From Anthracocystis setariae (lineage: Eukaryota; Basidiomycota; Ustilaginomycetes; Ustilaginales; Ustilaginaceae): 64,000 nucleotides of DNA. Position 1 is the stretch's first letter, and each line of letters begins with the position of its first letter. Below are positions 5,015 to 20,773 of this stretch, in pieces. The stretch spans positions 248,001 to 312,000 of the forward strand of contig CAKMXJ010000006.1 in the NCBI GenBank assembly GCA_928724745.1, given 5' to 3'. The position numbers and the translations under genes are program-made. Under the pieces are notes generated by a model, which was given only the letters and a program-made list of their open reading frames with translations, made no database searches and was not told the DNA's origin.

Positions 5015-5528
5015 GCCTTTGACAGTTCAGCACCTTTGCATAGAAGCAATCTTTTGTGTATCTTTTGGAAGGTGCCGAGGTTCCTAATAATTACCATGCT
5101 GGCAAAGCATTTTGATCGTCTGTAGGCAGATCACTAAAAAGTAGCAAACCATTGACCGCTAATTCATCATCCTGTATGCACGCCGCAGGTATGTAGCTTC
5201 AAGAGAATGAGGCTCTAAGAGATTGAGGCTTTCAAAGATTGAGTCTTACAAAGAATGAGGCTCTCAGAGAATGGAGCTCGCAGGGTCGAGGATTCAGCAT
5301 ATTCGCCTCCCCTTCCGCTTAGAGCAACACCATGGTCAGAGGGCTGCAGCATCTTTCCCGTGTTAGCACTCGCACAGGCACAGGCGGCCTTTCTCCTCCT
5401 CCTCACACGCCAGAGCAGCTACCGAAGGGAACACTGCATATATAACGGATCCTATGAACACAGCTGTTCTCAACCTTTCTTATCCTTTCCATCCATCCTG
5501 AACGAACAAAGACTTGGGTCTAAGTGCC
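5015..5528. promoter_or_regulatory. Intergenic and upstream region of RNase H copy 2, with minisatellite
   Basis: Imperfect copies of a roughly 16-bp unit (AGAATGAGGCTCTCAG-like) lie at about 5203-5275. A related block occurs at 6531-6560. A TATA-like TATATAA at 5439-5445 lies 84 bp before the ATG at 5529. The segment from about 5245 to 5400 is recognisably similar to 6531-6720 (shared GAGGATTCAG and AGGGCTGCAGCATCTTT words), which marks a duplicated promoter. Confidence 0.65.
5439..5445 (+). promoter_or_regulatory. TATA-like element of RNase H copy 2
   Basis: TATATAA lies 84 bp upstream of the start codon at 5529, close to the equivalent spacing in the other RNase H copies (64 and about 93-100 bp). 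Confidence 0.5.
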
Positions 5529-6050
5529 ATGTCACCTGATCCTTCTCGCGCTCCGCATGTCGTGTACGCCGACGGCTGTTGCCTCGACAACGGAAAGCCA
5601 AATGCCAAGGCTGGTTGGGGTGTCCACTTCGAGTCAACAAACAGCAACGGCCAAAACCATTCGGGTCAGGTGTCTGGACATGTCCAAACCAACACCCGAG
5701 CTGAGCTCACATCCATTATCCAGGCGATTCGGTTGGCCCCAAAAGATGGCACCAACCTCAAGATCTTCACCGATAGCCGAACCAGCATCGATGCCTACCG
5801 ACGCATTAACCATTGGGATCAAAACGGCTGGAGGACCACTCGAGGTGCACCCGTTCAGAATCGCGATCTCCTGAAACAGCTCGACAACGAAATGCGATCG
5901 AGAAACCCGCAACCTACGCTGCAGTACGTACAAGGCCATTCGGGCGTCCCAGGCAACGTTATTGCTGATCATCTCGCCAGGAAAGGCGCTAACAGTCCCG
6001 CTAGAAAAGGCGCTAACAATCCCGCTAGAAAAGGCGCTCGCAACCCTTGA
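5529..6050 (+). CDS. Short RNase H1 paralogue (copy 2), no hybrid-binding domain
   Basis: 173 residues from ATG 5529. The upstream extension of the frame would need a TTG start. The whole protein is one RNase H domain with catalytic D15 (YADGCC), E59 (TRAEL), D82 (FTDSR) and D147 (VIADHLA), and histidine H137 (QGHSG). All key residues are intact, so activity is expected. The hybrid-binding domain present in the 4055 gene is absent. The C-terminus is extended by three in-frame copies of an eight-residue unit, ARKGA(N/R)xP, encoded by a 24-bp tandem repeat. It is closest to the copy at 20306: the two share coding pattern, promoter words and 3' flank, so they arose by tandem segmental duplication. 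Confidence 0.85.
   Translation: MSPDPSRAPHVVYADGCCLDNGKPNAKAGWGVHFESTNSNGQNHSGQVSGHVQTNTRAELTSIIQAIRLAPKDGTNLKIFTDSRTSIDAYRRINHWDQNGWRTTRGAPVQNRDLLKQLDNEMRSRNPQPTLQYVQGHSGVPGNVIADHLARKGANSPARKGANNPARKGARNP
5976..6047 (+). repeat. 24-bp x 3 tandem repeat inside RNase H copy 2
   Basis: Units at 5976-5999, 6000-6023 and 6024-6047 differ by a few bases. Each adds eight residues to the C-terminus. The third unit reaches the stop codon. Confidence 0.85.
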
Positions 6051-6894: not shown

Positions 6895-8005
6895 TGTCAC
6901 GGGCGGTGAAGCCGAGGCGGCAGAAAAGTGGCCTTTCGACCGCTCTCGGCACTGGCGCGGCCAAGGGGGCTTCAGTTGACCGCCACAGCATTCGGATGAA
7001 GGGGGTAAGCCGTCGGCAGTGCGTCGTATCGAGCATTGTCGTTACCGTAGGCAGCGAAGCCGGAGCGGTGGAAAAACTGTTTCGCGGCCGCGTTCAACGC
7101 GAGTGCGGCTCAAAGAGTCTTTCTCGGCCGCTTTTGCTCATAGTGGTCGGATCGCGACCGTTCGACGCCGCAGAGACGCTGGATCGCGACAACACCATCT
7201 CGAGGTGATCAGCAGTTGAGGGACATCATATCAGACGCTCTCAGAGGCTTGGAGGTGATCAGCGGCTTGTACCACGGTCAGTACATGTGCACACGCAGGC
7301 CATGCAGCTAGACAATAGGCTAGCGCCGGGTCGGCCTCGTCCTAGGGGCTTGAAGCTGTCTTACTTAAGGCCTCCTTCCCTGGCTCGTAGTGGATGAGCT
7401 CCTCATCCACTCTACTTCTTACAACACAGTCTCTAAGCTCAGTATAGCTTCTTAACGTCGTCTTCACGATCATTCAGTTTCTAGTCCAGTAAGTTGCAAT
7501 ACAAGTAGCATTGCAGCTTCCTCGCGTGCCTCCGTTCAAGTCGGAGAACAGCTAGACCTCGTCGGTACCGGTATCGACACCGCAGCGCGTAAACGCTGCC
7601 TACAGGCTGACATCGGGACGTTAGGCCCTACGCCGTCGCCGTAACAGCTTGGTGATCACTCCCAGTGTTCACCTAACCATCTGAACAGCTTCCTGTCTCG
7701 TCAAGAGCGCTCGCGGGACACCAAGCTAACACACCGTAATACCGAGTACGCCGTGCTGCCGCTGAACGGAGCGCCAACAGCGTCAGTCGGTAATAGGTCG
7801 AACGCGGTTGAGAGGCCCACACTCCACCGCCGCCGAGTCGAGTGCGGCCCAGTCGCCTTTATCGGACCGTCGACGTATCTGCGCAACCCACCTCGTACTT
7901 CCCAGTTGCACAGGCGCGTAACCCAAACGCGGCGGCCCAGCCCAACAGGACCGCACCGCTCTCGAAACAAGATTGGCCTATTTACCAGGCGCCCGACCGC
8001 TGACA
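6895..8005 (+). repeat. 5' LTR
   Basis: 1111 bp, TG...CA ends, matching 15438-16548 at a constant offset of 8543 bp. It contains a perfect 10-bp inverted repeat with a 3-nt loop (7389-7411) and a short internal direct repeat GAGGTGATCAGC (about 7203 and 7253). Confidence 0.95.
7389..7411 (+). promoter_or_regulatory. Perfect stem-loop in the LTR
   Basis: AGTGGATGAG, loop CTC, CTCATCCACT. The copy in the 3' LTR is at 15932-15954. It follows a pyrimidine-rich stretch. If it lies downstream of the transcription start it would form a hairpin at the 5' end of the genomic RNA; that location is inferred. Confidence 0.6.
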
Positions 8006-8042: not shown

Positions 8043-9719
8043 ATGTCCGACGCAGCCGCGCCGCGAGGCAGCACTCCTCGCAGCCGGGCTTCGTCGCCTC
8101 CTGCAGCGAATCCGGAACCATTGCTGCAAGGCTTAATTGAGGACATACGACTTCAGATGAAGGAGGTCCATAATCAACGCATGGTTTACGAAGCCAGTCG
8201 ACAGGAGGCCATGCTGAAAGAGAGTCAGGACCGACTCCGCTTCCAGGAGAAGCTCTACACACTCATGGACCAGGCGACCGGCTTCAAGTCGTCGTCCACG
8301 CCCCTGATAGCTACTCCAGCCACGTCGCGACCCCTCACGGCGCAACAGGAGGAGATCCTCGCGCTCAAGGCCGAGATCGCAGACCTCAGGGAGCTGATCA
8401 AGCCAGCTCTACGCCAAGGGGGTGAGCCAGAGGTCGCCGCCGTCGCCCCTGGACACGAAGCGCACGAGGAGAGGTCGTACAGCATGCATGATGACCCTCG
8501 GCGCTCTGCTCCGTTGGGTAGCTCTACCCCTGCCCGTCGACCAGGGGCGTCAGCCCTACGCTGGAACGAAGAGTACAGTCAGGAGGACTTGTATTCGACC
8601 TCCACCGGCCGACGCCCCGCCTGGGACCATCCCACCATGACGGCACGGGAAGCAACCTTCGAGCGCAATACTGCCAAGAGCGACCCGAAGCTTGACTTCC
8701 CCGACTGGCAAGAGAATGACTTGGAGATGTCGCTCATCCAGGTCGAGGCCTGGTTCCGGTATCAGGAGATGTCCGACGGCCGCAAGAGGATCCAATTCCT
8801 GGGACCGCATCTCAAGGGTCGGGCTCTCACTTGGTACCGGTCCAAACTACGTGCCGATCCATCCCAGTCGGGCGCATTGTTCGGTGACTGGACCCTTTTC
8901 GTCAACCGGCTCAAGCAGCTCTACGGCGTTCACGACGAGAAGCTGGATGCCTTCAATAAACTCTACGCCCTGCGCCTCGCAACCGACAAGCCAGGCGCTG
9001 CAAGCGAGTACGTCGAAGCGTTCAGGACCCTTGAGGAGCGAGCTGGTATGAGTGACGAGCACCTCAAACTCCACCTTTTCCGGCGGGGCTTGACTCCAGT
9101 TCTCCAGCGTCAATTCGAGCGTACGTCGCCGAAGACGTTGTGGGAGTTCTACCGCGAGGTGGAGGATTTGGATCGCAACCGGGTCTTAGCGCAACAGACG
9201 TACCAAGGCGGTGCAGCGACCCTCGCTCAGCCGATCTCAAACTCATTGCGGTACGATTTCCCCTCGGCGGCTGGAAGAACTCACGCCCCGACCGCCGACG
9301 GTGCAAAAGCGGCCGGGCGGGTATTGGCACCGTCCGCCGTGGAGGCACGGCCGGCTGCAGCCACGCCCTCCCCAGCGCGCCCTCGGCCGTTACCGCCCCA
9401 TCTAGCCCAACGCCTGCCCGTCGTCTACGATCGTTCGCCGACGACTTTCGGCGCCACCACGTGCAAGCGATGCGGTAAGGAGGGTCATTGGGTGCGTGAT
9501 TGCCCTCAGCCGGCCCGGGAGACGGCCACCGGAGCGCCACGACGGCCTGGACCTCGAGCCTACGTCGCACAAGAGGACGTCGTGGCACACGAGGACGCCG
9601 AAGACCAGGAGGAGGAGGAGGAGGTGCTTGATTATGAAGACCTCCCACCCCTCGCGGACGACGACCGGGTCGATGGTGATCCTGACGACGAGGGAAACGG
9701 GCGTGGGACAACCGAATGA
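8043..9719 (+). CDS. gag: Gag polyprotein of the chromovirus
   Basis: 558 residues; ATG 8043 lies 38 bp after the 5' LTR. The N-terminal part is rich in Glu/Gln/Lys/Arg with coiled-coil character (about 33-75 and 100-120). A retrotransposon-gag (capsid-like) domain follows, with WFRYQEMSDG, GRALTWYRSKL and the L-rich FRRGLTPVLQRQFE segment (about 230-370). A CCHC zinc knuckle, CKRCGKEGHWVRDC, lies near residues 474-487, and the C-terminal tail is strongly acidic (EDQEEEEEVLDYED). The protein packages the RNA and forms the particle. The stop codon overlaps the pol start in ATGA (9716-9719). Confidence 0.93.
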   Translation: MSDAAAPRGSTPRSRASSPPAANPEPLLQGLIEDIRLQMKEVHNQRMVYEASRQEAMLKESQDRLRFQEKLYTLMDQATGFKSSSTPLIATPATSRPLTAQQEEILALKAEIADLRELIKPALRQGGEPEVAAVAPGHEAHEERSYSMHDDPRRSAPLGSSTPARRPGASALRWNEEYSQEDLYSTSTGRRPAWDHPTMTAREATFERNTAKSDPKLDFPDWQENDLEMSLIQVEAWFRYQEMSDGRKRIQFLGPHLKGRALTWYRSKLRADPSQSGALFGDWTLFVNRLKQLYGVHDEKLDAFNKLYALRLATDKPGAASEYVEAFRTLEERAGMSDEHLKLHLFRRGLTPVLQRQFERTSPKTLWEFYREVEDLDRNRVLAQQTYQGGAATLAQPISNSLRYDFPSAAGRTHAPTADGAKAAGRVLAPSAVEARPAAATPSPARPRPLPPHLAQRLPVVYDRSPTTFGATTCKRCGKEGHWVRDCPQPARETATGAPRRPGPRAYVAQEDVVAHEDAEDQEEEEEVLDYEDLPPLADDDRVDGDPDDEGNGRGTTE

Positions 9720-12700
9720 TGGCTTGTCTTGCCCTGCAACCGCCCTCGCCATCACCCTGTATATATCGGAACTGTTCGTTGTGTTTCTCGGCCAACTCCA
9801 ATCCATCGGTCCTCGAAGTTACCGGCACCATCAACGGGTGCCCGGCTCGCATCCTGGCCGACACCGGAGCTTCACTGTCTCTTCTCTCCAGCGCTTACGC
9901 TCGTACATATTGTATTAACACCAGGACCACTCCCCAGCCCACCGCAGTCCACGGCGTCAGCGGCCATCGTTTAGCCATCACTCACGATGCGACGCTGGCG
10001 GTCAACATCGGCGAGCAAACCTTACCGCCGCTGCAGGCCTATGTCGCGGACATCAGCGATTTCGATCTCATTATCGGCTACCAGGAGCTTCGTACACTTC
10101 AGCCGAGGATCGACTGGGATTCGGGCCGAATTAAATTCACCGCGGCGCAGCGCAATTTACTGGGCCGCGTTGAACACGACTTCGGCCCGACACATAATGC
10201 CACCAGCCGCGCCCTACCATCTAATGAGCCGGCTATCACTGTCCACGGAAACGAGTTCGTCTCATTCCAACAGCTCGTCCAAGCGTCCTATCAGGACGGA
10301 CCGATTGGCATTATGCTGATCGATGCTCCACCCTCATCGCTGCCTAGCTTCGGCTTCGTCCCGACCGGCGAAGACAAGGGCATCGAGATCGAGGTGGAAC
10401 CGGAGGCACTTACCCCAGTGTCGATCCCAGAGCAATATCGGGATCTCGAGGCGGTATTCAGTGAAGTCGAGGCCGATAAGCTGCCTCCTCGCACCAGCAC
10501 GGATTTGTCCATTGAGCTCGTGCCGGGAGCCAAGCCTCCCCAAGGCCCACTCTACCTCAAGGGGCCTAAGGAGATGGAGGAACTTCGTAAGTACCTCGAC
10601 GAGAACCTGGCAAAGGGGTTCATTCGGCCGTCAAAGAGCCCAGCGCGTTCGCCAGTGCTGTTTGTACCGAAGAAGGATGGCGGTCTCCGCCTATGTGTCG
10701 ACTACCGAGGGCTCAACGAGATCACAGTCAAGAATCGAGCGCCACTACCGCTCATCGAGGAGCAGCTTTTCTTACTGAGGAATGCCAAGGTGTTTAGCAA
10801 GCTCGATCTCAAGGCGGCGTACAACCTGGTACGGATAGCCGACGGTGACGAATGGAAGACGGCGTTCGGCACCCAACTCGGCCTGTACGAGTACCTCGTC
10901 ATGCCTTTCGGGTTGGCCAACGCGCCCTCGCACTTCCAATCACTCGTCAACGGCATCTTCCGTGACATCATCGGAGTCTATGTAGTGGTGTATCTCGATG
11001 ATTTCCTCATCTTCAGCAAAAACGAGGATGAACATGTCGAGCACGTCCGCGAAGTACTGCGGCGTTTGAAGTTGAACCGTCTCTTTGCCAAGCTGTCGAA
11101 GTGCATCTTCCATACAGACACCGTGGAGTTTCTGGGCTACGTCATCACGCCGGGAGGCATCGAGATGGACCAAGAGAAAGTACGAACCATCAAGGAGTGG
11201 CCGCTGCCTCAGTCGATTCATGACATCCAGCGTTTCCTGGGGTTCGCAAACTTCTATCGCCGGTTCATCTCACACTTTGCTCGAATCTCGAAGCCCCTCA
11301 CAGCGCTTGTCAAGCCTACGGAGCGGTTCAAGAAGTTCCAGCTGCCGGAGGAGGCGGCTGAGGCTTTCCACAAACTCATCGAGGCTTTCACGACGGCCGG
11401 AGTATTGCGACACTTCGACTATCACAAGCCAACCCGCCTCGAGACTGACGCCAGTGACTTCGCTCTCGCCGGAGTCCTCAAGCAGGAGACGGACAAAAGG
11501 TGGCATCCCGTGGCGTTCTATTCACGCAAGATGACGGCTGCCGAGAGGAACTACGAGATTCACGACAAGGAGCTCCTCGCCATCGTCGCCTGCCTTCATC
11601 AGTGGCGACATATGCTGGCGGGGCTCCCGTCTCAGTTCGCCGTTCTCTCGGATCACGAGGCGCTCAAATACTTTACCGTTCAACGTCGTATTAGCGGCCG
11701 ACAAGCTCGTTGGGCTGTGTTACTGGCCGATTTCGACTTCGTGGTTCAGTACCGACCAGGAGACAAAGCTGGCGAGCCCGATTCCTTGACACGACGTAGT
11801 GACATGGAGCCAACAGCAAAAGAGCGCGAGCATAACGTACGGCAGCTCCTCCACCCCCGCATTTTCGGAACTGCATTACCGGAAAATCAGTTACCGAGCC
11901 GAATTGAACCCGACGGCGGCTTAGCGAAAACCATTCAGCCGCGGTCGTCGATGGCGGCAATAGTGAGGGGTGGCCTGCCGGACCTAGTGCGTACTTTTCA
12001 ACCGCTCGACACTGAGCTCCAAGAGCTCCACAAGCACACGCCCTTCGAGGTCAGAGACGGTCTTTGGTATCGTGAAGGCCGCCTTGTCATTCCCAAGGTC
12101 TCGTTGGCCGGAAAGCAGGGTCGTCGTGACACACGCTCGGCCAAGATTGTTAGTGAGCAGTCACTTTCGGTGGAGCACCTACGCTTCATGGTAATGACAC
12201 AGTGCCACGACAGCATCACTGCCGGCCATCCGGGCCGTGATACGACGCTAGCTCTCACGCAGCGTCACTACTGGTGGCCGGGAATGCGTGCTTGGATCGC
12301 CGACTATGTAGCGAGCTGTCCAGTCTGTGCTCGCTACAAGGCACCCCGACATCGGCCGTACGGCCTGCTCAAGCCGTTAGCCACTCCCTCGAGACCATGG
12401 GGGTCGATATCCATGGACTTCATTGAGGGTTTGCCACCCTCCGACGGCTACGATTCGATCCTCGTCGTCGTCGATCGGCTCACCAAGCTCGCGGTGCTCA
12501 CGCCGACGGTCAAGACCGTTACATCGGCTCGCACAGCCGAGCTCCTCCAGCAACATGTGTTCCGCCGGTTCGGAATACCAGAACATATCGTCTCTGACCG
12601 CGGTCGTCAGTTCATCTCCGCGGTCTGGAAGCGGTACACCGACGCCCTCTCCATTCAGCATTCTCTATCGACGGCGTATCATCCTCAGACAGACGGACAG

Positions 12701-13474
12701 ACTGAGCGGGTCAACCAAGTTGTCGAGCAGTACCTCCGTATGTATTGCAACTACGAGCAGGACAACTGGGCCTCGCTGCTGGCCAACGCCGAGTTCGTCT
12801 ACAACAACGCGGTACACAGCAGTCTCGGCGTTTCACCATTCTTTGCGTGCTACGGGTGGAATCCTAAGCTGCATCCAGAGGTACCAGAGCGTGCTGGCGT
12901 GCTCGACCCTCAGCGAGCTGAGTTCGCTCGTTCAGAAGCCGAGCTCACTACTTATTTGCAAGATCAAGTCCGGTCGGCTCAGGCTCGTACGGTCGAACAG
13001 TACAACAAGAAGCATCTCGACGTCGAATTCAAAGTTGGTGAGCTCGTCTATGTCAGCCGACGCAACTGGAAGACTCGCCGACCAAGTCCCAAACTCGACA
13101 CCCGCTTCGCCGGGCCATATCCCATTGTCGAGCGTATCGGCGTTCGAGCGTACCGCCTCCAGTTGCCAGCGTCACTACGGGTCCACGACGTCTTCCATGT
13201 CTCGATGCTCGAAAAAAGACGATCCAGCGAACTAGCGGGCAGAGAAGAGCGCGCGGCTGTTCCGCCACTACCCGACGAAGACCTCGAATATGAGGTCGAA
13301 GCTATCACAAGTCATCGTACACGTGATGGCAGGCTTCAATACCGCGTCCTTTGGAAGGGCTACCCTGAGGAGCAAGCGTCCTGGGAGCCTGTCGAACTTC
13401 TGGCCTGCCCCGATCTCATCCAGGAGTATGAGGAAAAGCGGGGGGGACGACTTCCTCGAGTGGGACGGCGGTAA
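9716..13474 (+). CDS. pol: Pol polyprotein with C-terminal chromodomain
   Basis: 1252 residues, uninterrupted. Retropepsin-like protease with ADTGAS (D49). Reverse transcriptase with YLDD (426-429). RNase H with ETDAS (D578), the HDKELLA glutamate and SDHEAL. Integrase with an HHCC zinc segment (about 822-872) and the catalytic triad D901 (MDF), D961 (SDRG) and E997 (DGQTERVN), giving the typical D,D35E spacing. A chromodomain (about 1190-1245; WKGYPEEQASWEP) ends the protein. Domain order RT-RH-IN plus chromodomain identifies a Ty3/gypsy chromovirus. Such chromodomains bind histone marks and steer integration. All motifs are complete, so the element may be autonomous. Pol is in the -1 frame relative to gag and has its own ATG inside the gag stop. 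Confidence 0.95.
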   Translation: MMACLALQPPSPSPCIYRNCSLCFSANSNPSVLEVTGTINGCPARILADTGASLSLLSSAYARTYCINTRTTPQPTAVHGVSGHRLAITHDATLAVNIGEQTLPPLQAYVADISDFDLIIGYQELRTLQPRIDWDSGRIKFTAAQRNLLGRVEHDFGPTHNATSRALPSNEPAITVHGNEFVSFQQLVQASYQDGPIGIMLIDAPPSSLPSFGFVPTGEDKGIEIEVEPEALTPVSIPEQYRDLEAVFSEVEADKLPPRTSTDLSIELVPGAKPPQGPLYLKGPKEMEELRKYLDENLAKGFIRPSKSPARSPVLFVPKKDGGLRLCVDYRGLNEITVKNRAPLPLIEEQLFLLRNAKVFSKLDLKAAYNLVRIADGDEWKTAFGTQLGLYEYLVMPFGLANAPSHFQSLVNGIFRDIIGVYVVVYLDDFLIFSKNEDEHVEHVREVLRRLKLNRLFAKLSKCIFHTDTVEFLGYVITPGGIEMDQEKVRTIKEWPLPQSIHDIQRFLGFANFYRRFISHFARISKPLTALVKPTERFKKFQLPEEAAEAFHKLIEAFTTAGVLRHFDYHKPTRLETDASDFALAGVLKQETDKRWHPVAFYSRKMTAAERNYEIHDKELLAIVACLHQWRHMLAGLPSQFAVLSDHEALKYFTVQRRISGRQARWAVLLADFDFVVQYRPGDKAGEPDSLTRRSDMEPTAKEREHNVRQLLHPRIFGTALPENQLPSRIEPDGGLAKTIQPRSSMAAIVRGGLPDLVRTFQPLDTELQELHKHTPFEVRDGLWYREGRLVIPKVSLAGKQGRRDTRSAKIVSEQSLSVEHLRFMVMTQCHDSITAGHPGRDTTLALTQRHYWWPGMRAWIADYVASCPVCARYKAPRHRPYGLLKPLATPSRPWGSISMDFIEGLPPSDGYDSILVVVDRLTKLAVLTPTVKTVTSARTAELLQQHVFRRFGIPEHIVSDRGRQFISAVWKRYTDALSIQHSLSTAYHPQTDGQTERVNQVVEQYLRMYCNYEQDNWASLLANAEFVYNNAVHSSLGVSPFFACYGWNPKLHPEVPERAGVLDPQRAEFARSEAELTTYLQDQVRSAQARTVEQYNKKHLDVEFKVGELVYVSRRNWKTRRPSPKLDTRFAGPYPIVERIGVRAYRLQLPASLRVHDVFHVSMLEKRRSSELAGREERAAVPPLPDEDLEYEVEAITSHRTRDGRLQYRVLWKGYPEEQASWEPVELLACPDLIQEYEEKRGGRLPRVGRR

Positions 13475-13699
13475 GCAAATTAGCTATCCGACCGCGTTTG
13501 ATAATTTGGCGGCGCGGTGCTGGTCATTCAGCCGCCGTGACGTGACTGCGGTGTGTTGGCATATGCAATCGGCCGCCATCGACACCCGTCGCCACACACT
13601 CACACTCTTTTCTCAATCTTCAAGACATTACGACCAATTCATAAGAGTCTCAAGCACAACAGCATACGACAGAAACGACCTCAATTGCTAAGACGACGG

Positions 13700-15290
13700 C
13701 TAGCGGAAAACTTCAGGCCGGTGGTATCGCACCTCTTCCTCATCGTCACCACGGCTCTCCACGAACCAGCCAAGACCCTCGAAGTTCGGCTCCTCCTCCA
13801 TTACCTCACACGGAAGGTATTGGCCGAGCAAGGAGCGATTTTCGCGGCGGTATCGGGTCAGGGCCTCACGCACCTGAGTGCCGATCGTGCCCTCCGTCGA
13901 GAAGGCATCGCGAGCGTCGAGGTGGAAGGTCCGCTCCTTAAACCAGTCCACCAGGCGATTGCGACGCCGCACAGCACCCAAACCGGGACCACCAGGGTAC
14001 GAGAGGTGGGCACGCACCACAGCCCGCTCGTTCGTGCTCAACGTTGAGTAAGGGCTGTCGCCGACGTACTCGTGGCGTGTGGCGCGCCAGATCGTTCGGC
14101 TGCCACATTTCTTCTTGGCTGTCAAGCAATGACAGCACGACGAAGCTGCAGGACGGGGACGAGGACCGGTCGGATCCCCGTAAGCGACTGGAAAGCATCT
14201 GTCAATACCAAGAAAAGAGGAGGCAGGTCGTCAGTAATGCTCGAGTCATGCATGCCGGAAGCGATACTTACGGTACGTCCAGGTCCGCACAGTGCTGGCA
14301 GCTGTAGTTCGGCCACGGCGAACTACCTTCAGTCAGGCGGCGCACCATCGTTCGGTGTAGCCAGACCTTACCGGCATCGTCAAGCTGCCACTCACGGTCC
14401 CAGGCCTGGTTAACGATCGCGACCAGCAGAGCGGGGGCGGTGAATCGCTCTGTCCATTCCAGCATCTCGACCAGAGTGGGCTTGTGAGGACCCGTTCGCG
14501 GACGCACCACGTCTTCGGCCCGACGAATGGGTGGCGGGCCGACTTCAGGGGTGCGGCGGCCAGGCGACCCCAGTGGCAGGCCGGGACCAGGCGTGTCGGC
14601 GCGCTCAGAATTGGCACCATAAACCGACGAACGAGGGCCCACGGGTGAGGCCGGCGTCAGACCGTGTTCATGGAGCTGCGCGCTTGTCATCGCCCGCAGC
14701 TCCTCGGCCGTAAACCTCTCCGGAGACGTAAGAACTTGCGGAGGAGGGGAGGATGGGACGTACAGCTCCGGCGAGGTACGCACGTAGACAGGCGAACGAG
14801 GAGGTGAGATTGACCCACTCGACGACGGCGATCGCGACGATGGGCCAAGAAACAACGGCACCAACGGTGAACCAACCATGCCAGACGGGACCGGGACCTG
14901 TGGAGGCGTTGCGGCGAGGGGTCCAGCGACGCCAGTAGGCGTTACGTTGGCGTGGGACGGGGGAGCAACAGGAGCTGTACCTACGGTGTCAGATGTGGCA
15001 GCAGCAACAGACACAGCCAAGGCGTCCGGCGCGGCAGAGGCAACAGTCACGGCCAACGCATCAGGAGGAACTACAGCAGCAGCCACGGCTACGGTGTCGG
15101 GCGCGTCAGCAGCAGCGTCGGCGACGATGACGACGGCAGGCGTGGTAGTGCTGTTAGACGCCGTCGGGGCTTGATCACCGCCGGACGGCGAGTCAACGTG
15201 AGCGTCAGCATCGGCTGGCGTCTTAGCAAGCCGAGCCGACCGACGAGAGGGAACGGCAGGAGCATTCGGGGATTGCTTTTTGGGCGCCAT
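13700..15290 (-). CDS. Antisense spliced accessory gene with Zn2Cys6-like cysteine array, inside the chromovirus
   Basis: Two exons on the strand opposite gag-pol: 15290-14272 and 14198-13700, with a 73-bp intron (GTAAGT donor, TTGACAG acceptor). They join in frame to 505 residues. Exon 1 opens MAPKKQ and a basic RRSARLAK segment, then a long Ala/Val/Thr/Pro/Ser-rich region, then an ordered helical segment (LVEMLEWTERF, NQAWDREW). The junction assembles six cysteines: C331, C334 and C341, then 19 residues, then C361, C364 and C371, i.e. C-x2-C-x6-C repeated twice. That is the spacing of each half of a fungal Zn2Cys6 binuclear cluster with an enlarged loop; LTAKKKC resembles the second half. 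Exon 2 ends in an acidic helical tail. A DNA- or RNA-binding role is inference. The ATG lies 147 bp from the 3' LTR, so the LTR may drive it. Confidence 0.7.
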
Positions 15291-15424
15291 TACGCTGTTG
15301 ACGACGGAGAGGAACAGATGTGATGATGGTAGCTCAGTAGCCTTTTCACTCAGCCGCCGACGAGCTCACAGCGGCTGGAAGATGCGCAGCCCATTTCATT
15401 TCGCCTCGCAGGAGCTCGGTTCTC

Positions 15425-15437
15425 GGAAGGGGGGTAA
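15425..15437 (+). other. Polypurine tract before the 3' LTR
   Basis: GGAAGGGGGGTAA directly precedes the TG of the 3' LTR, the expected site of plus-strand priming. Confidence 0.75.
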
Positions 15438-16548
15438 TGTCACGGGCGGTGAAGCCGAGGCGGCGGAAAAGTGGCCTTTCGACCGCTCTCGGCACTGGCG
15501 CGGCCAAGGGGGCTTCAGTTGACCGCCACAGCATTCGGATGAAGGGGGTAAGCCGTCGGCAGTGCGTCGTATCGAGCATTGTCGTTACCGTAGGCAGCGA
15601 AGCCGGAGCGGTGGAAAAACTGTTTCGCGGCCGCGTTCAACGCGAGTGCGGCTCAAAGAGTCTTTCTCGGCCGCTTTTGCTCATAGTGGTCGGATCGCGA
15701 CCGTTCGACGCCGCAGAGACGCTGGATCGCGACAACACCATCTCGAGGTGATCAGCAGTTGAGGGACATCATATCAGACGCTCTCAGAGGCTTGGAGGTG
15801 ATCAGCGGCTTGTACCACGGTCAGTACATGTGCACACGCAGGCCATGCAGCTAGACAATAGGCTAGCGCCGGGTCGGCCTCGTCCTAGGGGCTTGAAGCT
15901 GTCTTACTTAAGGCCTCCTTCCCTGGCTCGTAGTGGATGAGCTCCTCATCCACTCTACTTCTTACAACACAGTCTCTAAGCTCAGTATAGCTTCTTAACG
16001 TCGTCTTCACGATCATTCAGTTTCTAGTCCAGTAAGTTGCAATACAAGTAGCATTGCAGCTTCCTCGCGTGCCTCCGTTCAAGTCGGAGAACAGCTAGAC
16101 CTCGTCGGTACCGGTATCGACACCGCAGCGCGTAAACGCTGCCTACAGGCTGACATCGGGACGTTAGGCCCTACGCCGTCGCCGTAACAGCTTGGTGATC
16201 ACTCCCAGTGTTCACCTAACCATCTGAACAGCTTCCTGTCTCGTCAAGAGCGCTCGCGGGACACCAAGCTAACACACCGTAATACCGAGTACGCCGTGCT
16301 GCCGCTGAACGGAGCGCCAACAGCGTCAGTCGGTAATAGGTCGAACGCGGTTGAGAGGCCCACACTCCACCGCCGCCGAGTCGAGTGCGGCCCAGTCGCC
16401 TTTATCGGACCGTCGACGTATCTGCGCAACCCACCTCGTACTTCCCAGTTGCACAGGCGCGTAACCCAAACGCGGCGGCCCAGCCCAACAGGACCGCACC
16501 GCTCTCGAAACAAGATCGGCCTATTTACCAGGCGCCCGACCGCTGACA
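15438..16548 (+). repeat. 3' LTR
   Basis: 1111 bp, same ends as the 5' LTR. The two substitutions noticed by line-by-line reading are at 15465 and 16517. Confidence 0.95.
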
Positions 16549-16647: not shown

Positions 16648-18267
16648 TTACATGAGAGCTTGGCCTGTGGATGTGACAGAATTGCTGCCCTCGACGTCGT
16701 TGTTCTCGTCGTTGTCTTCGTCCTCGTCTTCATCCTCGTCAGAGTTGTGGCGACGATTAGCTGCTCTTGCTCGCACTGCAGCATATGCAGCAGTGCCCTT
16801 TCCATGGCGCCTGGACTCCGGTGTTGAGTCCACCTCCATCCGAGCAGTTGAATGAAACAGAGCCTGAAACATAGACTCACGAAGATCATGCGCAAGTGCG
16901 GTCCTGCGATTTGAGAGAGCATTTTGACTCATGTTGCGAGTATCGAGGTCGAGCTCTTCCTCGTAGCGCTGCTGGTTAGCACGTCGTATGGCTCTGATTT
17001 CGTGTTCTTGGTCTTGCGCTTGCTCTTGATTGGTACATTCTGCTCGCTCAAACTGCTGAGCAGCGTCCTCGGTCACAGCCAGGAGTTCAGCAAGGTCGTC
17101 AGGCTGATCATATTGACTGGCAAATGTGTGAGCGATGATACAAGCCTGCATCGTCTTTGCTGCTGTGTTGAGGTCTTGAACTCGATAGATGTTTCCGCGG
17201 TAGTCCTTCAGGCATTGAAATCGGTTCTTCAGGTATGCGATTGCGTTCTCAACTCGGCCTCTCACCCTTGAAAGGCTGGCGTTGAAGTGCTTGAGGTCGC
17301 GGCTCTTGTCGGCTTGGATATGGTGGAATGGTCCTACGGTGAAAGGCGAAAAGCCGTATCCACCATCAACCCAGATAAACTCACCTTCGTCAAGATAAAG
17401 ACGGGGTTTCTTTAAGATGTTGCTTCCAGAGGTCCATACTCGTGAATCTTGAACGCTACCAGGCTGACCAACAACAGACTCGACAATGCGCAGTGAGTGT
17501 GGCATGATAACCAAAGCGACGTTGATTGAGAAGATTCCCTTGTAGCTGTAGTGCTCCTTGGACATCAGGCCTGGTCGAAATGCAAGCTTGAAGTGTGTTC
17601 CATCCACAACAAGCCATCCTTTTCCCCACTCTTCAACACCGGACGTCCTGCGAACCCAAGCTGCAGCCTTCTGTCGTTCCTCCTCACTGGCAAATCGCAT
17701 GACTTCTCTATTGAGTTGGTTGAGCCCGTCGACGGTGCGGTCAGTGTAGCTGATTAAGCTACCAACGCTGATACCACATTGCAGGGCAGAGTCACGCTCC
17801 CCTGCTCCGTTACCAGAACGACCGAGCCTGTAAAGAGCGACAGAGACGATCTCTCGAACCTTTGTAAGAGGGAGCGAGCCATGACCAAACGCCTGAGTAC
17901 GCTGTAGTCGACCTGTGAGATTGTCGAAGGCTTTGGGTGACATGCGAACAAGGCCTCGAAACATCGGCTTGTTATTGACGGCGTACCCATCAAGGAGATG
18001 GATCAACTTCTGCGCCCGGTTTTGAGCGTGCACGCGAGAGACAGTATATCGTTGTTGTTGTACCATTGCATAGAGGTAAATGAGTTGACGTGAGGTTGCA
18101 TGTTTGTTGTCTAGAACGTTGTCGAAGTCTTCGTCATCATCGGAGGATGTAGACATTGAGTCCTCGGACGCTTCGTCGTTTGCGTCTTCGAGTTCAGCTT
18201 TGACGCTGATTTCAAGCAGGCGCGCGATATCGTTGAGTAGCTTCTGCTTGTTGCTTGTTCGCACCAT
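16648..18267 (-). CDS. PIF/Harbinger transposase (DDE_Tnp_4, HARBI1-like)
   Basis: 539 residues, single exon. An acidic, serine-rich N-terminus is followed by a helical DNA-binding-like region with QLIYLYAMVQQQRY and REIVSVALYRLGRSG (about 60-180). The nuclease core carries D222 (VVDGTHF), D301 (WVDGGYG) and E340 (RVENAIAYLKNRF). The D301-E340 spacing is typical of the family; D274 (SVQDSRVW) is a further conserved acidic position. The C-terminus is glutamine- and acid-rich with a run of Asp/Glu. The enzyme should cut at the 54-bp ends and needs its Myb-like partner, encoded upstream on the same strand. There is no frameshift or stop. The stop codon lies 95 bp from the LTR insertion duplication. 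Confidence 0.92.
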   Translation of the reverse strand: MVRTSNKQKLLNDIARLLEISVKAELEDANDEASEDSMSTSSDDDEDFDNVLDNKHATSRQLIYLYAMVQQQRYTVSRVHAQNRAQKLIHLLDGYAVNNKPMFRGLVRMSPKAFDNLTGRLQRTQAFGHGSLPLTKVREIVSVALYRLGRSGNGAGERDSALQCGISVGSLISYTDRTVDGLNQLNREVMRFASEEERQKAAAWVRRTSGVEEWGKGWLVVDGTHFKLAFRPGLMSKEHYSYKGIFSINVALVIMPHSLRIVESVVGQPGSVQDSRVWTSGSNILKKPRLYLDEGEFIWVDGGYGFSPFTVGPFHHIQADKSRDLKHFNASLSRVRGRVENAIAYLKNRFQCLKDYRGNIYRVQDLNTAAKTMQACIIAHTFASQYDQPDDLAELLAVTEDAAQQFERAECTNQEQAQDQEHEIRAIRRANQQRYEEELDLDTRNMSQNALSNRRTALAHDLRESMFQALFHSTARMEVDSTPESRRHGKGTAAYAAVRARAANRRHNSDEDEDEDEDNDENNDVEGSNSVTSTGQALM

Positions 18268-18497: not shown

Positions 18498-19885
18498 TTA
18501 CATGCTGTCAAAGAGGTCGGGATTGTAATGAGGTGCTGGAGGAACATTGCCATGAGGGACATTATTGATACCAAGAGCTCGGAGGACATCCACCAAAGCA
18601 GTGCGCTCATTTGCACGTCTCCTCTCCTCGCGTTCTTCGCGTTCACGCTCCCTCTCACGCTCACGCTCATCCCTTTCTCTCTCCTTCTGCAGCTCGGTCT
18701 GGAGCTTCATCTCCGTGCGCTTGGTCTTCTCCTTCTCGCACTCCAGCTTTATGGCATAGCAATCCAGTTGAGACTGATAGAAAGCCTCTGCGATAGAATC
18801 TCGTTTGGCCTCAATTCCTGAGCTTCGCCTGCGCTTGTTGCCGAGATGTGGCGTCTCGCGATTTGACGACGGCGAGGACAAGCGTTGGATGGAGGTGAAT
18901 TGGCGGAGTTGGAGAGGGGGAGTGCGGGGTTCGTCGTCGAGAGCAGATGTGCCTGCAACGTTGGCGGCAGTGGCGCTGGTGGCGGTGTCGGTGGTGGAGG
19001 TAGAGGAAGAGACCAACGCTGGATCGATCATACTCATCAGGTCAGGCAAGCCTCGAGCATGGCCAGAGTGACTTGAGCCTTGAGTGTCGTCGTACATGTC
19101 AAAGTCGTTGTTATCGTCGTTGCTGTCAAGGGCTGGCGTTGTGATCAGGATGTTTGGGGCGCTCTGGTACCGATCCATCATCATCTCGTGCATTTTCTCA
19201 AACCATGGGTTGGCATCAGTGAGGGTTTTGCGGGAGTTGTAAGCCTATACACACGAGGAAAGAAGAGATCAAACTATGTGTTAGCACAAAAGCATCTCTT
19301 CGAAAACAGCAAAACACTTACAGGATTAGAAGGATCGATATCGCGAAGGAGCGTGCCAGCTCCGGTCAACGTCAGCGTGGCCTTCAGCTTCTGGTACGAT
19401 GTAAGGAGACGACGAAGCTTTGTCTTGATGCGATCGGTGTCCACCAATGAGTCGGCCTCTGCAGGGAAGATGAGCTTGAAGATGTCGGCGTGGACACAGT
19501 CCTTATGCAAGGTGCTAGTTGGGTCCTCCGCCATGTTCGTTCGAGAAGGCAGCAATGCGCGCTGGTAGCTTTCGTTATTGTAAATGATACTGACCAACTG
19601 GTAGGTTTCCTCCTTCGTCCAAGAGTGGTTCCGGCGCTTGCCTGCAGTGACGGTGCTGGCCTTCTTTGCATTGGCACGAGCTCTGGTAGTGATTGACGAT
19701 CGAAATGGCTGTACAGACGCTGAGCGAGAAGTTGTTGCTGACCCAAGCTGTGAATTGGAAAGAGGAGCGTTGGCACCTCGCGCGGCTTGCGCATGCTCTT
19801 CATCTGCATGAGAAAGTTGACTGTCATTGAAGTTCAGAACACCACTAAGCTCCGCCGCATCCATGTCTAGCTCGTTAGTTGACAT
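18498..19885 (-). CDS. Harbinger Myb/SANT-like DNA-binding partner, two exons
   Basis: Exons 19885-19322 and 19244-18498 join across a 77-bp intron (GTAAGT donor, TATAG acceptor) into 436 residues. Without the splice, two unrelated-looking ORFs would be called. Residues about 84-170 form a Myb/SANT-like trihelix (HSWTKEETYQLVSIIYNN, then RLLTSYQKLKATL). The junction creates NPAYNSRKTLTDANPWFEKM. The C-terminal half is rich in Glu/Arg repeats with coiled-coil character (about 365-415) and ends with a Pro/Asn-rich tail. In PIF/Harbinger elements the Myb-like protein binds the transposon ends and brings in the nuclease. Both genes read the same way, this one first, about 230 bp ahead of the transposase. 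Confidence 0.85.
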
Positions 19886-20305: not shown

Positions 20306-20773
20306 ATGCCATATCATCGTCCTTACAGCGCTCATATCGTGTACTGCGATGGCTGCTGCATCGGCAATGGCACAATCTATGCCAGAGCTGGCTGGGGTGT
20401 TTACCTCGCGGATAGCGACGAAGGCTATTGCGGTCAGCTGTATGGAGACGTGCAAACCAACATCCGAGCTGAGCTCACATCCATCATCAAGGCCATTGAG
20501 TTGGCACCCGATGACGGCGACGATCTGAAGATCTTCACCGATAGCCGATACTGTATCGATTCCTATGCACGCATTGGTATCTGGCAGCGAAACGGTTGGT
20601 TAACCACTCGAGGTACACCGGTCAAGAATCGCGATCTCCTTGAAGAGCTCGACTACGCCATGCAATCGAGAGATCCAGAACCGGAGTTGATCTACGTCCA
20701 AGGCCATTCGGGTGACCGAGGCAACGAGATCGCTGATGATCTTGCTAGACAAGGCGCTCAGGAACATTACTGA
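20306..20773 (+). CDS. Short RNase H1 paralogue (copy 3), no hybrid-binding domain
   Basis: 155 residues from ATG 20306; the frame extends upstream only to a TTG. It is a single RNase H domain with D15 (YCDGCC), E56 (IRAEL), D79 (FTDSR), D144 (EIADDLA) and H134 (QGHSG), all intact. It is most similar to copy 2 (AGWGVYLAD, VQTNIRAELTSII, LKIFTDSR) but lacks the C-terminal repeat. The 3' flank is also shared with copy 2. The Harbinger insertion removed its distal promoter, so expression may be reduced or captured by the transposon end; the coding region shows no decay. Confidence 0.85.
   Translation: MPYHRPYSAHIVYCDGCCIGNGTIYARAGWGVYLADSDEGYCGQLYGDVQTNIRAELTSIIKAIELAPDDGDDLKIFTDSRYCIDSYARIGIWQRNGWLTTRGTPVKNRDLLEELDYAMQSRDPEPELIYVQGHSGDRGNEIADDLARQGAQEHY

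Follow-up and report, generated by a model that had tools for sequence, protein, structure and literature searches.

Accessory genes on the antisense strand of LTR elements are already known, and their function is open, according to the available parts of two papers (PMC7264820, PMC11963269). The same excerpts describe aORF-3R antisense genes in plant Ty3 elements, namely gene23 of Grande, the gene of RIRE2, and that of Retand, with TRP28; gene23 is transcribed from its own promoter and has a nuclear product. A fungal case is brtn, which Boty-like elements of Botrytis cinerea are reported to carry in addition to their other genes, in antisense and between pol and the 3′ LTR (Zhao et al. 2011, as cited in PMC7264820 and PMC8365987). 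An initial sequence-only reading of the locus described here named Grande and RIRE2 as precedents; these stand, and brtn provides a fungal precedent that the plant-only list lacked.

We analyzed a 64,000-nt stretch of Anthracocystis setariae DNA (contig CAKMXJ010000006.1), referred to as the window, from a genome of 21.5 Mb in 36 contigs. The window contains an LTR element in which the gag and pol frames are open and an additional gene lies on the minus strand between pol and the 3′ LTR (Table 1). A chromodomain at the C-terminus of pol (PF00385, residues 1192-1241, E 2e-15 in Pfam) places the element among the chromoviruses (Ty3/gypsy). Its LTRs differ at 2 positions over 1111 bp, and this near-identity suggests a recent insertion. 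A 5-bp repeat, GTCAC, is discernible on the outer side of each LTR, before the 5′ LTR and after the 3′ LTR.

Table 1. Features of the element, numbered from the first nucleotide of the window.
Feature	Positions	Strand	Content and basis
5′ LTR	6895..8005	+	1111 bp, TGTCAC...GCTGACA; LTR comparison
U3 counterpart in 5′ LTR	6895..7232
gag	8043..9719	+	Retrotrans_gag, zinc knuckle (Pfam)
pol	9716..13474	+	protease, RT, RNase H, integrase, chromodomain; PF00078, PF00665, PF00385 and others
gap, pol stop to antisense stop	13475..13699		six GCGG/CCGC words, better conserved than the remainder
antisense exon 2	13700..14198	-	last base of codon 340 and residues 341-505; C341, C361, C364, C371
antisense intron	14199..14271	-	GTAAGT...CTGAC...TTGACAG
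antisense exon 1	14272..15290	-	residues 1-339 and two bases of codon 340; C331, C334
cysteine cluster, interrupted by the intron	14105..14300	-	C-x2-C-x6-C-x19-C-x2-C-x6-C; 22/22 full-length copies and PSEUBRA_003866
leader, 3′ LTR to antisense ATG	15291..15437	-	polypurine tract at LTR end
3′ LTR	15438..16548	+	LTR comparison
U3 (assumed), first 338 nt of 3′ LTR	15438..15775		12 GCGG/CCGC words; putative regulatory sites

Other frames lie near the element in the window. An RNase H-domain frame occupies 5514-6050 on the plus strand (PF00075, E 9.6e-29), and 300 nt of it (5648-5947) recur at 20416-20715 with 75% identity. A DDE_Tnp_4 transposase frame on the minus strand (16648-18267) adjoins the 3′ LTR, and the frames beside it (18498-19193 and 19274-19885) have no Pfam match above the cut-off.

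Joining the two antisense exons gives 1518 nt that encode 505 residues followed by a stop, which bears out the two-exon, 505-codon frame proposed from the sequence. The 73-nt intron has the canonical ends that had been claimed for it, and its CTGAC word begins 36 nt before the 3′ end. Cysteines occur at residues 331, 334, 341, 361, 362, 364, 371, and 470 of the product. Of the six cluster cysteines, exon 1 encodes C331 and C334 and exon 2 the remaining four, so the motif is complete in neither exon by itself; the proposal that splicing builds the cluster agrees with these positions. The N-terminal part of the protein is of low complexity, with a basic RRSAR sequence near the N-terminus. This sequence is found in all 22 full-length copies considered below, and the homologues PSEUBRA_003866 and family 2 carry RRS.R. 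The highest 19-residue Kyte-Doolittle mean among the three proteins scanned is 1.76, indicating no clear membrane span.

The remainder of the genome was searched with 141 residues of exon 2. The search returned 26 matches, two of which are the same place, giving at least 25 loci (family 1); counts from this query, and from the PSEUBRA_003866 query described below, are lower bounds. The whole spliced frame is open at 22 of the 25 loci, encoding products of 494-522 residues, 21 of which are distinct. The other three copies are incomplete: one is cut by a contig end with the remainder open (L016), one is decayed (L033), and one has a displaced exon 1 (L031). At the last of these (C18:229551-256845, which also includes L053 and L059), a distance of ~18 kb, which includes a family-2 pol, separates exons 1 and 2, and the family-1 element was apparently split by a nested family-2 element. 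The end of pol is found beyond the antisense stop at ≥85% identity at 24 of the 25 loci and at 72% identity at L033. An LTR is found on the other side of the gene at 23 loci, the exceptions being L016 and L031. In its antisense coding frame, its position after pol and before the 3′ LTR, and its retention in most copies, the gene is like an aORF-3R.

The splice signals and the cysteines are retained throughout these copies. All 22 full frames have a GTAAGT donor, a CTRAY branch word, and a terminal AG. The introns comprise 17 distinct sequences, in which no invariant stretch is longer than the donor GTAAGTA; CT[AG]AC and AG are also retained, whereas the intron interior shows a median difference of 0.355. 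Since the genomic RNA contains the intron only in antisense orientation, retrotransposition should leave it in place, as the sequence-only reading had argued, and its presence in all 22 copies agrees with this expectation. The six cluster cysteines are invariant in 22/22 copies, as are C362 and C470, so that the comparison among copies revealed no decay of the cluster.

Selection on the gene was examined as the median of pairwise NG86 dN/dS values for pairs with dS >0.05, the pairs being non-independent. Across the 22 copies, the median is 0.19 for the whole protein, 0.365 for residues 1-190, 0.065 for the core (residues 276-505), and 0.031 for the cysteine cluster, with median dS by region of 0.52-0.72. 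For comparison with pol, 18 of 45 listed pol pieces were retrieved and 16 were used, two with an incomplete antisense copy being dropped; the L044 piece has a stop and was represented by its longest open stretch, 901 residues. Over the same 120 pairs, less those under the dS cut, the medians are 0.060 for pol, 0.064 for the antisense core, and 0.194 for the whole antisense protein. The core is therefore conserved like another protein of the element, as is the case for aORF-3R genes. Differences in exon 2 occur at 0.062, 0.026, and 0.258 of first, second, and third codon positions, respectively. The substitution pattern shows that the antisense frame behaves as a protein-coding gene under purifying selection.

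These data bear on two other explanations. The frame might have opened by chance or as a by-product of coding constraint on the other strand, given that GC-rich DNA opens long frames by chance and that one sense frame over exon 2 lacks a stop in 2 of the 22 copies. However, the other two sense frames are stopped in every copy and the third in 20/22, the splice signals are invariant within an intron whose interior has diverged, and the core dN/dS is low. Together these observations refute a chance frame, and we assign it a negligible probability. It is also conceivable that antisense transcription or double-stranded RNA silences gag-pol and that the protein is secondary. The genes are convergent, so antisense RNA that continued past the antisense stop would enter pol, and RNA-based regulation is raised for plant elements in the available part of a review (PMC7264820). 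An RNA-only mechanism, however, requires neither the frame nor the cysteines, and selection acts on the amino acids, as seen in the codon-position differences and most strongly in the cluster. Silencing by RNA as the main role is thus unlikely.

The histories of pol and the antisense gene differ among copies. Distances in the two genes are weakly correlated (rho 0.26), and for the pair L019 and L026 a dS of 0.26 in pol contrasts with 0.85 in the antisense gene. The family-1 copies L019, L026, and L010 show a strong mismatch between the two sets of distances. Distances in the U3 of the LTR correlate with those of the antisense gene (rho 0.35) but not with those of pol (0.07; two U3 sequences are short), although a correlation with the antisense gene is also seen for the final 300 residues of pol (rho 0.38). 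These mismatches and correlations therefore suggest that element copies swap segments by recombination, with neighboring segments traveling together.

A search for related products, as had been proposed, identified homologues in another fungus and in a second element family. Residues 190-505 compared with 6689 candidates returned a single protein, PSEUBRA_003866 (P0001; 638 residues) from Kalmanozyma brasiliensis, a member of the Ustilaginales. It is 47% identical to the window protein over 81% of the query (E 2.5e-64), and the spacing of its six cluster cysteines is the same. When used as a query against the A. setariae genome, PSEUBRA_003866 returned the 25 family-1 loci and three others, which we term family 2. 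Two of the latter adjoin pol genes 69% identical to the window pol; at the third (C8), the matching part of pol is separated by ~10 kb, with an integrase frame in the vicinity of the antisense frame. The family-2 antisense frame is intronless, encodes 611 residues, and is nearly identical in all three copies. A profile of the family-1 core and PSEUBRA_003866 scores it at 75.6 bits (E 1.8e-24, in a set of 9 sequences). The 845-bp LTRs of the C28 family-2 copy (L052 2393-3237 and L060 330-1174) are 100% identical, which suggests that this copy was inserted very recently. The family-2 protein has no relative at E 1 among 4407 candidates, and PSEUBRA_003866 has none among viral contigs, where 9 pattern matches were seen.

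The sequence-only reading had also raised the capture of a host gene; in such a case the element might harbor a former host regulator that has no set role there. The intron, in a gene carried by a retroelement, is reminiscent of a cellular origin, and Zn2Cys6-like spacing is typical of fungal host regulators. Neither the exon 2 search nor the PSEUBRA_003866 search, both of which give minimum counts, found a copy outside elements in this genome, so no host source was identified for the gene. Furthermore, homologues reside in a second element family and another fungus, and constraint on the core is as strong as on pol. This conservation already speaks against capture without a set role, which we regard as very improbable.

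A third chromovirus family (L055, L061, and L063), with a pol 58% identical, carries an antisense frame with a different cysteine arrangement. The three comparisons between diverged copies give an antisense dN/dS of 0.18-0.20; a sense frame that overlaps the gene gives 0.29-0.33, for which shared third positions may account. The near-identical family-3 pair has too few changes for dN/dS. Homology to families 1 and 2 is unsupported, as all profile scores are negative: the family-1 profile gives a best E of 1.5, hhalign gives P 0.25, and a family-1 and -2 profile gives a best E of 0.04 when family 3 is scored as one sequence, at -0.7 bits. The family-3 protein has no relative at E 1 among the best 7994 candidates by shared words, and an LTR pair was not found for the C2 copy. 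By eye, L061 has TATATAAAA upstream and a possible tiny first exon, ATGCGTA, followed by a GTAAGT intron; the same patterns, the TATA word and the short first exon, were not found in L055. Judging from these families, antisense genes with cysteine clusters seem to have been adopted more than once.

The cluster had been described as Zn2Cys6-like, and this description holds in part. Two C-x2-C-x6-C half-sites are present in all 22 full-length copies and in PSEUBRA_003866, as in PF00172 regulators, and the second half-site contains K-x-K-C, another shared feature. The family-2 cluster, C-x2-C-x6-C-x18-C-x2-C-x7-C, deviates in its linker and its last spacing. Canonical Zn2Cys6 members have a basic stretch in the first half-site, and the PROSITE-type pattern calls for a basic residue there and a linker of 5-12 residues. 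In contrast, the linker here is 19 residues (18 in family 2), and the basic stretch, KKKC, lies in the second half-site. This pattern matches none of the 22 copies, nor does it match PSEUBRA_003866 or family 2, and Pfam at E up to 10 yields no match for the window protein or either homologue. A search of the PDB by sequence gave 0 matches. An AlphaFold2 model of PSEUBRA_003866, built on only 3 alignment rows, has a mean pLDDT of 40, with ~30-45 across the cluster and ~70-88 solely over three helices before it, values too low to inform on the fold of the cluster. The half-site spacing thus stands twice over, while the PF00172 profile, the linker, and the basic-residue pattern do not. The product would bind zinc and is best termed zinc-cluster-like.

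The LTRs and the pol-antisense gap were examined for conserved words as candidate target sites. Twenty of 42 listed family-1 LTRs were aligned; the 338-nt cut taken as U3 was chosen after viewing the conservation profile, and the words tested included several that overlap. Each LTR has 9-13 GCGG/CCGC words in these first 338 nt. There, GCGG is the best conserved of the 40 4-mers with ≥4 occurrences, with a mean identity of 0.920 versus 0.799 overall and 0.772 for CpG columns outside GCGG (Mann-Whitney p 0.003), and circular shifting gives p 0.0002. In the rest of the LTR, GCGG conservation is not seen (shift p 0.24). Four other words tried in the LTR shift tests give p 0.011-0.035, and CGG over the whole LTR is outside the ten most invariant 3-mers. 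In the gap, which was compared in 14 of the 22 full copies, shift tests give p 0.0044 for GCGG, 0.0002 for GCGGC/GGCGG, and 0.16 for CGG alone. In the leader, GCGG is not significant (p 0.32), and CGG gives p 0.039. Counts of GCGG show a modest excess over Markov expectation (12 vs 6.9 in U3, P 0.048; 6 vs 2.1 in the gap, P 0.02), and family-1 6- and 7-mers in U3 plus gap show no excess (P 0.62 and 0.54). A terminator and bacterial-type promoter scan, a type ill-suited to a fungus, found nothing, and the RNA fold of the gap has a z of -0.15.

Family 2 has a different iterated word. CACGTTA has two sites within the first 300 nt of the family-2 LTR and three in the family-2 gap, a count of 5 that 0 of 200 shuffles reach. 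It occurs twice more near the 3′ end of the LTR and is therefore not confined to U3. The 6-mer CACGTT is found 0 times in the 1836-nt family-2 antisense gene and 0 times in the family-2 leader. The family-2 copies are near-identical and give no measure of word conservation. Genome-wide, TYCACGTTA occurs 98 times, compared with 285 for the reversed control pattern, and 26 of the 98 sites, counted from the list, belong to copies of family 2 or to what appears to be a solo LTR on C17. Because family 2 has no GCGG excess and its iterated word lacks CGG, a CGG specificity common to the two families is not supported. Two homologous proteins beside different iterated words at comparable places are what would be expected of diverged self-regulators. 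In family 3, CCGGGA-type words are significant in LTR plus leader and in LTR plus gap; similar words are seen by eye throughout its coding DNA, and these words were judged uninformative as target sites.

These observations allow us to propose a mechanism. The antisense gene would be expressed as a protein of ~500 residues in which a basic stretch (RRSAR) near the N-terminus is accompanied by an extended low-complexity region and, toward the C-terminus, by a core with two half-sites. The basic stretch, RRSAR or RRS.R, would take the protein into the nucleus, where the zinc-cluster-like core would recognize the iterated short words in U3 and in the gap. Once bound, the protein would determine, as an activator or a repressor, how strongly the sense promoter in the 5′ LTR and its own promoter at the 3′ LTR are used. 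Control of the element's own LTR was among the roles first suggested, and the GCGG words conserved in the first 338 nt and the iterated CACGTTA of family 2 point to it circumstantially. We therefore favor, with about even confidence, a nuclear DNA-binding regulator through which the element would control its own transcription.

The same words could instead be bound by a host factor, and the protein could act on element RNA, cDNA, or the integration complex, for instance as a nucleic-acid chaperone or in nuclear import or integration-site choice, rather than on LTR transcription. Its conserved cysteine-rich core, its RRSAR stretch, and a selection on the core as strong as that on pol would fit such a role. 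However, gag already has a zinc knuckle and pol a chromodomain, and GCGG is conserved in the first 338 nt and the gap and not in the rest of the LTR. We consider this alternative rather unlikely. Returning to the regulator of transcription, we tentatively extend the proposal: chromoviruses of smut-like fungi may possess their own zinc-cluster-like regulator, produced from a spliced antisense gene, whose sites have co-diverged with it, GCGG in family 1 and TYCACGTTA in family 2. If so, each element would carry a self-contained regulatory circuit that also separates element families from one another.

This locus can be placed among described systems as follows. Botrytis cinerea is an ascomycete. 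As described in the papers that cite it, brtn resembles the gene reported here in that both are extra genes of a fungal LTR element, in antisense and placed after pol and before the 3′ LTR; the two differ in host. HBZ of HTLV-1 is an antisense nuclear regulatory protein of a retrovirus. It and the product described here, for which a nuclear role is proposed, would both be antisense nuclear regulatory proteins of retroelements, and no relation between them is seen. HBZ is itself cited in the available part of PMC11963269. With plant aORF-3R genes, as presented in the excerpts available, the gene shares position, orientation, presence in most copies, and a proposed nuclear regulatory role. In contrast, those elements are from plants, and Retand is a non-chromovirus whose proteins carry TRP28 (PF04195), which Pfam at E up to 10 does not find in the antisense proteins here. 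The words "intron" and "zinc" are absent from the available text of PMC11963269, as are "intron" and "zinc finger" from that of PMC7264820 and "antisense" from that of the survey PMC3248453. In open-access PMC text, we found no description of an antisense gene in basidiomycete chromoviruses or of one with a Cys6 cluster.

The locus adds to these systems a gene whose core is as constrained as pol over 22 copies with 21 distinct proteins. It encodes a recognizable cluster of a metal-binding type, and candidate words that differ between families lie close by. The role of antisense accessory genes thereby becomes open to direct testing through DNA-binding and reporter assays on small pieces of DNA.
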